Assembly: GCF_003611275.1 (NCBI RefSeq)
Contig: NZ_CP020694.1
Span: forward strand, 2,480,001 to 2,544,000
Source: Sulfitobacter sp. D7
GTDB lineage: Bacteria > Pseudomonadota > Alphaproteobacteria > Rhodobacterales > Rhodobacteraceae
Direction of reading: 5' to 3'
Length of the DNA: 64,000 nucleotides
Part shown: positions 56,286 through 59,473 of the stretch, one piece after another
Position numbering within the stretch: position 1 is the first letter of the stretch
Layout: every line of letters starts with the position of its first letter
The notes under the pieces: generated by a model
The model's database searches: none
The model's input: the letters and a program-made list of their open reading frames with translations, nothing else
Told to the model about the DNA's origin: nothing
Position numbers and translations under genes: made by a program

Positions 56286-56336
56286 CGCTCCGGCGGTCTT
56301 GCGGGCAGCTTGCCCCCTGCCCGCCGGAGCGTTTTT
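56286..56336 (+). terminator. Rho-independent terminator of thrS
   Basis: CGCTCCGGCGG pairs with CCGCCGGAGCG (11 bp), followed by T5. A near-identical TTGTAACAA stretch lies on each side (56273-56281 and 56335-56343). Confidence 0.85.
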
Positions 56337-56491
56337 GTAACAATCATTCCCTTCCTGCGCGGGAAGGTTACAATTTTCGCTAGTTTTCCGCGTGATTTCT
56401 GACGGGACCGTGACGCACTCCCTCGTGACTGGCTTGTGAGGAAGCAGGCTGCTCTAGTAAACCTGTTCAAACCATCAGGAAGGAAACGACA

Positions 56492-56794
56492 ATGTCCACC
56501 ACACTCAAAACCGCCGCCATCGCAGGGGCCGTCGCCGCCGCGCTGAGCAGCCACGCCACCACCGCTACCGCCGCTTCGCAAGAGAAATGCTTTGGCGTTT
56601 CGCTGGCCGGTGAGAACGACTGCGCAGCGGGCCCCGGCACCACCTGCGCGGGCACCTCTGTGACCGATTACCAAGGCAACGCATGGACCCTCGTTGACGA
56701 AGGCACCTGCGCCGAGATCGACCTGCCCGAGATGGCAGACGGGACCGAGCGGACCGGCTCTTTGGAAGCGCTCGACCGCGACCTGCCCGCTTAA
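56492..56794 (+). CDS. bufA1: DUF2282 precursor, bufferin BufA1-type
   Basis: 100 aa with a Sec signal (about 1-28, ending ATTATA-A). The mature part has four Cys at 33, 44, 52 and 73, in [24 protein letters not shown] and DEGTCAE, the DUF2282 pattern. In described bufferin systems such proteins are ribosomal peptides whose Cys are modified by a DUF692 multinuclear iron oxidase to bind copper. GGAAGGAAACGAC is a good ribosome-binding site. The three next genes are the expected partners. Confidence 0.9.
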
Positions 56795-56857
56795 TCTATA
56801 GCGTTCCGGGCGGCATCCCCGCCCGGAACCCCGCCCCGCAACATGCCGGAGGCCGTT

Positions 56858-57703
56858 ATGCGCGACGATACCCCCCCTGTCACAACACTGCCCAATGCCC
56901 CCGGCGTCGGATTTAAATCTCGACATTTCGATGGCTTGATGGCCGATCCTGGCCCGGTCCGCTGGATCGAGGTGCATGCCGAAAACTACATGGGCGACGG
57001 TGGCCGCCCCCATGCGCAACTACGCGCCTTGCAAGACCGTTTCGCCCTGTCGGTCCATGGTGTCGGCCTGTCGATCGGTGGCGAAGGGCCGCTGGACGCG
57101 GCCCATCTGGCACGGCTCAAAACCCTCTGTGACCGAACGCAGCCCGCGTCCTTCTCCGAACATTTGGCGTGGTCGACCCATGGGATGGAGTATCTCAACG
57201 ATCTCCTTCCGCTGCCCTACACCGAGGAAACGCTGACCCGTGTGGCGTCACATATCAACCAAGTCCAAGATGTCTTGGGTCGGCAAATGCTGCTGGAAAA
57301 CCCCTCCAGCTACCTTGCATTCGCGGAATCCGACTTGTCTGAAACGGACTTTTTGGCAGAGATTATAGCGCGCACCTCTTGCGGTCTCTTGCTGGATGTC
57401 AACAATGTCTTCATTTCGGCCACCAATCTCGGGCTGTCGCCACAGGGTTACATCGACGCCTTCCCGACAGACCATGTGGGCGAGGTTCATGTGGGCGGCC
57501 ATGATGACGACACCGACGATCACGGCGCGCCGCTTTTGATCGACAGCCATGGCAAACCGGTCGTCGATCCTGTTTGGGACCTGTTAAGCTACACGCTGGC
57601 CCAAACCGGGCCAAAGCCGGTGCTGGTCGAGTGGGACAATGACGTGCCCGACTGGTCCGTCCTACGGGCCGAAGCCACCCGCGCCGCTGAGGTGCTGGTG
57701 TGA
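56858..57703 (+). CDS. bufB: DUF692 multinuclear non-heme iron oxidase (MNIO), BufB-type
   Basis: 281 aa from the ATG at 56858, which has GGAGG six bases upstream; an ATG at 56843 is possible. TIM-barrel enzyme with conserved His, Glu and Asp in [67 protein letters not shown] and [11 protein letters not shown], the residues that bind the iron cluster. It is expected to install thiooxazole-type or related Cys modifications on the precursor. The stop overlaps the next GTG start (GTGA). Confidence 0.93.
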
Positions 57704-58458
57704 CCGACCAACACAGCTTTCGCGCGGCCCTGCTTGATCCGTCACGGTCTGCACCCGATGGGCTGCGCGATGGCCGGGGGCAACCGGCGGGCGCGCGCTA
57801 TGGCGTCTATCGCAACAACGTCACGCATTCCCTGATCGCCGCGCTCGAAGTGGCCTTTCCCCTTGTGCGCAAGCTGATCGGCGCCCGCAACTTTGCCGAA
57901 CTGGCCCCCCTCTACGTCCGGGCGCATCCGCCGACATCTCCGATGATGATGCATTACGGCACGGATTTCCCCGCCTTTATCGCGGCTTTCGCCCCTTTGG
58001 CCAAGATTGGCTACCTCGCCGATGCGGCACGGCTCGACATCGCGCTGCGTGCCTCTTACCACGCAGCTGACGCGGCTCCGCTTGATCCGAAGGTCTTCGA
58101 AACGCTTGGCCCCGATGCATTGATGGGGGCAAGGTTCACCATCGCGCCCGCAACCCGCCTCTTGCGGTCAGACTGGCCGCTTTTCGACATCTGGCGCTAT
58201 AGTTTCACCGAGGATGCGCCCAAGCCCCGCAGCGCAGCGCAGGATGTGATAGTCACCCGCCCCGCCTTTGATCCCGCGCCGGATCTGCTGCCGCCCGGTG
58301 CGGCGCTATGGCTATCCCACCTTGCCGACGGCTTGCCCTTCGGGGCGGCCCATGACGCCACGGCGGGCGCCCAGCCCGCGTTTGACCTCGCCGCCGCCTT
58401 GACCCTCGCCCTGAGCCACGGTGTCTTCAGCGCAATTTCCTTGGAGGGCAGTAAATGA
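57700..58458 (+). CDS. bufC: DUF2063 precursor-recognition partner, BufC-type
   Basis: 252 aa starting at a GTG that overlaps the oxidase stop. The N-terminal DUF2063 domain shows [55 protein letters not shown] and [21 protein letters not shown]2063 proteins accompany MNIO enzymes and are thought to bind the precursor leader and present it. The C-terminal part is shorter and less clear. Its stop overlaps the DoxX start. Confidence 0.92.
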
Positions 58459-58988
58459 CCCAGCTTCTCACCCTATACCGCAACGCCGCCGACCGTCTGG
58501 AGCGGGCCGACTGGCTGCTTCCGACCCTCGCCCGGTTCCTCTTTGCCGCAGTGTTGCTGGTCTATTTCCTGAATGCCGGGCTGACCAAACTCGGGCCCGG
58601 CCCCTTGGGCATCTTTACCCCATCCACCGGAGCCTATGCGCAAATCTTCCCCCGCGTGTTTGAGGCCGTGGGCTATGACAGTGACGCGCTTGGGGTGTTC
58701 CATTGGCTCGTCGTCGTCGCCGGAACGGTGGCGGAATTTATCTTGCCGCTGCTCATCGTTATTGGCCTGCTGACCCGACTGGCGGCACTGGCGATGGTGG
58801 GCTTTGTCGTGGTGCAATCCCTCACCGATCTTTACGGCCATGGCAGCGCGCTTGGCGCGTGGTTCGACCGCTTTCCCGATGCCCATATCCTTGACCAGCG
58901 GGCGCTCTGGGTGTTCTTGCTTTTGGTACTCGTCATCAAAGGTGCCGGCCCATTGTCACTGGACCGGCTAATTGCAGGCCGAAGTTAA
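58455..58988 (+). CDS. DoxX family membrane protein
   Basis: 177 aa with four membrane segments and the DoxX blocks [39 protein letters not shown] and [19 protein letters not shown]. DoxX proteins occur at the end of many bufferin operons; a redox role (electron donor to quinone, or to the iron enzyme) is proposed for some. It overlaps BufC by ATGA, and its stop overlaps the convergent ArsC-like gene by four bases. Confidence 0.9.
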
Positions 58989-59305
58989 AGCATCGCATGA
59001 ACGTCGGCTTCTATCTCTTTGTTCCAGCCGAGAAATAGCTTGTCACCCACCGCGATCAGAGGGCGTTTCATTAGCGCTGGATGAGCTTCTATCAGGGCGA
59101 GCGGGGCCTGCTTGCGCGTCTCTTCATCCAGCCCCCGCCAGGTGGTGGAGCGGGTGTTGAGCAAGGCCGCACCAAATTGCTCATGGGCCTGCGTCAAAAC
59201 CGCCCTTGGCACGCCCGCCTCCCGAACATCGACCAACTGCGCCTCTGGCAGCGCCTTTTTCGCCTTGCGACAGCTGTCACAGTTTTTCAGCCCATAAATT
59301 AGCAC
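58985..59305 (-). CDS. ArsC/Spx-like reductase (YffB type)
   Basis: 106 aa from a GTG at 59305 with GAGGGAG six bases upstream; the frame continues upstream with no family sequence. Thioredoxin fold with VLIYGLKNCDSCRKAKKAL (CxxC), GVPRAVL, LNTRSTTWRGLDE and LMKRPLIAVGDKLFLGWNKE. Despite the ArsC name, relatives such as YffB/Spx are thiol oxidoreductases or regulators, and the arsenate role is unproven. Convergent with DoxX. Confidence 0.86.
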   Translation of the reverse strand: MLIYGLKNCDSCRKAKKALPEAQLVDVREAGVPRAVLTQAHEQFGAALLNTRSTTWRGLDEETRKQAPLALIEAHPALMKRPLIAVGDKLFLGWNKEIEADVHAML

Positions 59306-59473
59306 ATCCGTCTCCCTCAGCCACGCGATCGCGCCCCCAATTGCAGGTTTCGCACCTGATCGCTTGATTTTTTCCAAGTCCGCGCGATCTTTCTATTATG
59401 GCGGGTCGCAATTCAATCGCTTTCGCCATTCTGCTCGACGCAGAGACGCAAAGACAAAGGAGGCGCGGAGATT

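Follow-up and report, generated by a model that had tools for sequence, protein, structure and literature searches.

A Buf1-type bufferin operon in Sulfitobacter and a conserved tandem palindrome that may mark an alternative to sigma-F/NrsF control

Architecture of the bufferin locus

We examined a bufferin locus of Sulfitobacter sp. D7 within a 64-kb stretch of DNA, hereafter the window. Four same-strand genes occupy positions 56492-58988. The bufB/bufC junction overlaps as GTGA, with GTG as the bufC start codon, and the bufC/doxX junction as ATGA. Re-reading of the coordinates confirmed this layout, which the original prediction had described, and our recount agrees with its 100-aa first gene product carrying cysteines at positions 33, 44, 52, and 73.

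56492..56794, + strand: bufA1, DUF2282 bufferin precursor, 100 aa (ORF reading, Pfam)
56588..56710, + strand: the four Cys codons of bufA (Cys33/44/52/73)
56843..57703, + strand: bufB, MNIO (DUF692) maturase (NF050167, PF05114, 3BWW, invariant residues)
57700..58458, + strand: bufC, DUF2063 partner, PME-type 1 by profile and length, 252 aa (PF09836)
58455..58988, + strand: doxX-family membrane protein gene (PF07681, 29.9 bits)

Each product exceeds the cut-off of its Pfam family: DUF2282 (80.4 bits, cut-off 22.4), MbnB_TglH_ChrH (344.8, cut-off 25), DUF2063 (83.1, cut-off 27.2), and DoxX (29.9, cut-off 23.6). Genes for a precursor, an MNIO, a DUF2063 protein, and DoxX are described as the core of Buf1 clusters (PMC12452194). 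The order bufA-bufB-bufC-doxX on one strand recurred by tblastn in 97 of 100 loci (L003-L102, in which some genomes are counted twice through their presence in two collections), which argues that the arrangement is not due to chance. The other three (L021, L030, and L031) hold only the leading buf genes, in short stretches. Profiles, gene order, and depth of conservation thus agree with the predicted assignment of a DUF2282 precursor, DUF692 oxidase, DUF2063 partner, and DoxX protein to a bufferin operon, and they support its classification as Buf1-type, which makes it a typical example of an established class. In the sources, proteins closely related to the precursor already bear the name "BufA1", and the nearest named relatives are Sulfitobacter. 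The genome carries one DUF2282 match and one MNIO match.

By eye, thrS and a transporter gene lie upstream of the operon; an ArsC/Spx-family gene and a cold-shock gene lie downstream. Inspection of both flanks revealed no copper regulator or sigma factor gene adjoining the operon, in keeping with the original prediction. The ArsC/Spx-family gene (58985-59377, - strand) is convergent with doxX and overlaps the doxX stop; among the 75 buf loci that span 9 kb or more, 67 have a match to it. By eye, a GC-rich inverted repeat with T's after it lies 3' of thrS at 56287-56335 and is likely a terminator separating thrS from bufA; a terminator scan with a loop limit of 8 did not report it.

Precursor and maturation proteins

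The N-terminus of BufA resembles a Sec signal spanning about residues 1-27 as judged by eye (Lys6, a hydrophobic stretch at 8-18, and A-T-A at 25-27), and the spacing of the four cysteines is constant across the complete BufA sequences aligned. For Buf1 precursors, the central two cysteines are reported to be modified and the outer two to form a disulphide (PMC12452194). Thiooxazole chemistry is supported for such enzymes (PMC12668002), and Buf1 products are published as copper-binding (PMC12452194, PMC12668002). From this work we infer that the present BufA would undergo Cys modification and bind copper, with Cys44 and Cys52 the likely modified (thiooxazole) residues and Cys33-Cys73 the likely disulphide. 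The earlier expectation that all four cysteines are oxidized is probably wrong, given that published Buf1 chemistry modifies the central two only (PMC12452194). The C-terminal tail of BufA (56750-56791, of RxGSLxxLxRDLPA type) is strongly conserved beyond the DUF2282 domain in most thrS-linked BufA sequences and might serve as a recognition follower. We rejected a tie between this tail and the type of transcriptional control discussed below, since some NrsF-linked BufA sequences also have it.

BufB scores 370.4 bits against the NCBIfam model NF050167 (MNIO_BufB, "MNIO family bufferin maturase"; cut-off 310) and matches the solved MNIO 3BWW at 3.9e-44, with weaker matches to MbnB and the 8HCI protein; the MbnB model gives 49.6 against a cut-off of 325, far below it. 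Loss of the DUF692 metal ligands would have counted against the original prediction. In HvfB, N175, D242, and H244 are predicted site-3 ligands and are reported as essential (PMC13419390). They correspond to N187, D234, and H236 of BufB through the 3BWW alignment with an assumed one-residue numbering offset, and in this partial test all three, together with other His, Glu, and Asp residues, are identical in each of the 10 sequences aligned. The 252-aa length of BufC agrees with that of PME-type 1 partners (PMC12452194). The HvfC model matches BufC weakly over residues 4-165, below its cut-off, and the match of the HvfX model to the DoxX protein is likewise below cut-off.

Across the genus, BufB was matched in 62 of 62 genomes. 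In one of these (G033) it is divided over two contigs; in another (G055, 84% complete) the match is only 42% identical and belongs to a different cluster type. G055 is the sole genus genome without a close BufB, and its MNIO cluster (L221:2483-6668) encodes a ferritin-like protein, a 189-aa Cys-rich protein with no Pfam match, an MNIO, and a DUF2063 protein.

By analogy with published systems, BufC would present BufA, with its putative Sec signal, to BufB, a multi-iron oxidase that would turn the central Cys44 and Cys52 into copper-binding thiooxazoles. The modified BufA would then be exported by Sec and buffer copper in the periplasm, with DoxX as a probable accessory membrane protein. Among better-known relatives, the HvfABC oxazolin/fontiphorin operons (Lys-Cys captophorins) have in common an MNIO, a PME1 partner, and a Cys-rich precursor, and thiooxazole chemistry is reported for them (PMC12668002); their precursors are of EGKCG-repeat type, unlike BufA, and the HvfB, HvfC, and HvfX models score below cut-off here. 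Methanobactin MbnBC shares the MNIO family and Cys oxidation but is described with a precursor that has no Sec signal and with another partner (PMC12452194).

A conserved tandem palindrome upstream of bufA

Between thrS and bufA lies a conserved 31-bp element that the original prediction had not listed.

56400..56430, + strand: conserved upstream element and proposed operator, TGACGGGACCGTGACGCACTCCCTCGTGACT, 31 bp, between thrS and bufA
56400..56413, + strand: distal palindrome TnACG-N4-CGTGA (from the logo)
56415..56428, + strand: proximal palindrome nCACg-N4-CGTGA, offset 15 bp from the distal one (from the logo)
56453..56458, + strand: weak -10-like hexamer TCTAGT (alignment consensus TTaagT; weak conservation, logo positions 50-58), a tentative promoter assignment

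The element is a strongly conserved block about 100 bp before bufA, and 89 of 91 distinct upstream regions score above 10 with a matrix trained on them. Its logo, TnACg-N4-cGTGA-nn-CAC-N5-yCGTGA-n-T, reads as two tandem 14-bp palindromes 15 bp apart; most half-site positions carry close to 2 bits of information, and the flanking positions mostly stay under 0.5. Within the window, the exact match at 56400-56430 is the sole match at up to three mismatches (0.15 expected), and the whole genome holds no further site at up to two. Among the open-licence papers retrieved by literature searches, none describes such an element for bufferin operons in its title or the opening lines of its abstract.

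The sequence TnACG-N4-CGTGA could also fold as a short RNA hairpin, and expression might then be controlled by a structured RNA with two small hairpins in the bufA leader. Among 85 distinct elements, however, 18% permit the second pair of the distal arm; in the proximal arm, 11% permit the outer pair and 36% the inner one. Most other hairpin pairs hardly vary and therefore lend no covariation support, and Rfam returned no match at E up to 1. The pairing percentages and the absent Rfam match make hairpin control highly improbable.

Distribution of the element

The element is present at the buf locus in 59 of 60 genus genomes, as an exact copy in 53 and with a single mismatch in 6, and precedes bufB there by 413-573 bp. 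All 60 have some match at up to two mismatches; the sole exception at the locus, G055, has only a two-mismatch match, located away from buf. Some genus genomes contain extra two-mismatch sites, a looseness at which a reversed-pattern control also yields some.

Among 292 order-level genomes, DUF2282 was found in 217, the element (at up to one mismatch) in 138, and NrsF above cut-off in 34; the reversed pattern gave 6 hits in 5 of the same genomes. The element occurs in 138 of the 217 genomes with DUF2282 versus none of the 75 without it. It precedes the DUF2282 domain by 151-198 bp in 98 of the 99 order-level genomes whose positions were compared. In one genome (G226), a one-mismatch element lies between bufA and bufB (L223, G226:C9:6219-6249), together with a weaker copy before bufA. 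Two loci (L059 and L100) have no thrS match in the fetched flank and keep the element. Given these loci and its absence from genomes without DUF2282, the element follows bufA rather than thrS.

Outside the family, one-mismatch hits occurred in 6 of 380 genomes of the class (7 hits), and the reversed control gave about as many (6 hits in 6 genomes), so these hits represent background. One locus outside the family (L242, G653:C1:21782-21814) has a nearly palindromic stretch built from the same half-sites, with one mismatch on both strands.

A broader possibility is that some known global regulator acts through the element on a wider set of copper or stress genes, with only the strict double site being nearly unique to bufA; weaker single sites would escape the patterns used. 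The neighbourhood offers one candidate, an LdtR-type MarR gene located 5.3 kb beyond doxX on its downstream side, just right of the window (L253:1250-1768, - strand; 236.4 bits, cut-off 250). It is a weak one, since LdtR has a published site rich in A/T (PMC5481520), unlike the element. The absence of the element from all 75 sampled genomes without DUF2282 likewise argues against a wider regulon, as do Cu-ATPase genes: the element was not found at 30 such loci (of 36 hits; one of the 30 below the family cut-off) from 10 genomes, each covering about 4.7 kb, where the best score was 3.3 versus 41.2 at bufA. We rejected an element common to Cu-ATPase genes on these grounds and regard membership in a wider regulon as unlikely.

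Proposed replacement of sigma-F/NrsF control

In Caulobacter, two DUF2282 operons are reported to depend on the ECF factor sigma-F, with a GTAACC-N16-CGAA box and the negative regulator NrsF (PMC3511200); this is the control of bufferin operons that we found in print. Caulobacter CC3254-CC3257 (PMC3511200) resembles the Sulfitobacter operon in its four families, their order, and a four-Cys precursor, whose N-terminus in Sulfitobacter looks Sec-like by eye. The present operon differs in being thrS-linked, in having no NrsF in the genus sample, and in carrying the tandem palindrome where Caulobacter has its sigma-F box. A search that recovered the Caulobacter control found NrsF in none of 60 genus genomes, this one included. 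In the 300 bp before bufA, the best match to the box with N16 spacing has four mismatches, and none lies at the usual place; with N15 spacing, one two-mismatch sigma-F-like site at -35 of bufA was judged to be chance. Given the absence of NrsF and of a box at the usual position, we rejected a sigma-F box in this genome.

At the order level, the element was present in 2 of 31 DUF2282 genomes with NrsF versus 136 of 186 without it (Fisher p = 9e-13, uncorrected for kinship, as are the order-level counts). In both genomes with the element and NrsF (G121 and G126), NrsF is located elsewhere in the genome. In a further 50 of the 217 genomes with DUF2282, both NrsF and the element (at up to one mismatch) are missing.

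We also read 37 further buf loci, most of them picked for want of an element match at up to one mismatch. In 13 of the 37, buf and NrsF share a contig and are separated by about 5 kb or less, and 12 of these 13 operons show, with up to two mismatches, a sigma-F-like box of the form GTAA(C/T)(A/G)-N16-CG between -73 and -98 relative to bufA, the exception being L237. Two loci with NrsF elsewhere in the genome (L208 and L216) have looser sigma-F-like boxes at -77 and -80. In the rest of the 37, the best box never falls at -73 to -98 with up to two mismatches. Six have boxes at other distances, presumably by chance: five with two mismatches (L217, L218, L228, L235, and L238) and one with a single mismatch (L239).

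The NrsF-linked Buf1 operons of other Rhodobacterales and Shinella have homologous bufA, bufB, and bufC genes, with BufB proteins 55-65% identical; doxX was matched in 7 of the 12 NrsF-linked loci without thrS. They differ from the present operon in having an NrsF/DUF1109 gene close by and, mostly, a sigma-F-like box, and in the absence of the tandem palindrome. Two annotated records (L251 and L252) also show an ECF sigma gene near the buf operon.

Among the thrS-linked loci in this set, 16 of 21 score above 0 with the element matrix. The remaining five comprise two with a sigma-F-like box (L214 and L216) and three with neither signal (L210, L225, and L238). One locus of the same BufB clade without a thrS match (L233) also has neither the element nor a sigma-F-like box. 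In L214 (G156), the thrS-bufA interval contains an NrsF gene and an ECF-like one, and a sigma-F-like box takes the place of the element. In a BufB tree of 68 rows, whose control types we assigned on the basis of these results, one side is fully supported and consists of 14 sigma-F-type rows; L214, L216, and L232, also sigma-F-type, fall among the other 54. The simplest reading, with direction read informally, is that sigma-F control is the older state and that control through the element was gained in the thrS-linked lineage, with a few exceptions.

The element could instead be the promoter of another ECF sigma factor rather than an operator. TnACG and CGTGA lie 19 bp apart, the Caulobacter operon is under an ECF factor, and among the six sigma-70 region 2 hits of this genome, length and profile mark three as ECF-type. 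The strongest conservation, however, takes in the CGTGAnnCAC block in the middle, the arrangement of the half-sites as two palindromes is unlike a two-box promoter, and weak -10-like conservation appears further downstream. NrsF is absent throughout the genus sample, and of the three ECF factors one adjoins PhyR and another an RskA-type anti-sigma. An ECF promoter is, on balance, distinctly improbable.

A change of control in the thrS-linked lineage might also mean that the substance buffered differs, for example, another metal or thiol stress instead of copper; the Caulobacter sigma-F targets, including both DUF2282 operons, are reported to respond to chromium and cadmium (PMC3511200). The copper binding reported for Buf1 products (PMC12452194, PMC12668002) and the four-Cys spacing kept in BufA argue against such a shift, which we consider quite unlikely.

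Candidate regulator and promoter

The proximal palindrome ends about 25 bp before the weakly conserved -10-like stretch, a distance that suits an activator touching the -35 region. A consensus sigma-70 scan found no promoter before bufA, so activation is suggested tentatively, by the position of the element. Adjacent regulator genes were likewise sought among the sites where one might hide. Of 97 thrS-bufA gaps measured, ten exceed 420 bp; by eye none of the ten shows a recognisable regulator gene except for the sigma-F/NrsF genes of L214, and on this reading we rejected a regulator concealed in the gap. A regulator carried alongside plasmid copies of the operon was sought in 4 of 351 matching plasmid records. 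In the Tritonibacter copy (L249), buf is accompanied by thrS and the element with no recognised adjacent regulator, the Pseudorhodobacter locus (L250) has neither the element nor a sigma-F-like box, and the Shinella and Paracoccus copies (L251 and L252) carry sigma and DUF1109 genes.

The original statement that control must come from elsewhere fits these observations: the operon has no adjacent regulator gene and has a candidate target site upstream of bufA. We propose that a DNA-binding regulator, largely dedicated to this operon and encoded away from it, took over from sigma-F/NrsF in the thrS-linked lineage. It would act through the tandem pair of 14-bp palindromes a short way upstream of bufA and would most likely activate transcription. 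Buf1 chemistry combined with this unusual mode of control is our preferred overall explanation, with a probability of about 0.7. At even odds, we place the more specific proposal that a putative dedicated transcription factor, with a tandem TNACG-N4-CGTGA operator almost only at bufA, replaced sigma-F/NrsF in the thrS-linked bufferin lineage of Rhodobacterales, that this factor may have a novel way of sensing copper or Cys/redox state, and that sigma-F was retained or regained in a few nested lineages.

Implications

Published work describes bufferins as a RiPP class that is both large and widespread (PMC12452194, PMC12668002). The peptide operon itself is routine; its control is the new part. 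What merits follow-up is the conserved element, together with the exchange of one control system for another. A conserved element nearly exclusive to bufA in a large bacterial order provides bait for a second control system, and the nested sigma-F cases would let regulatory replacement be tested directly.
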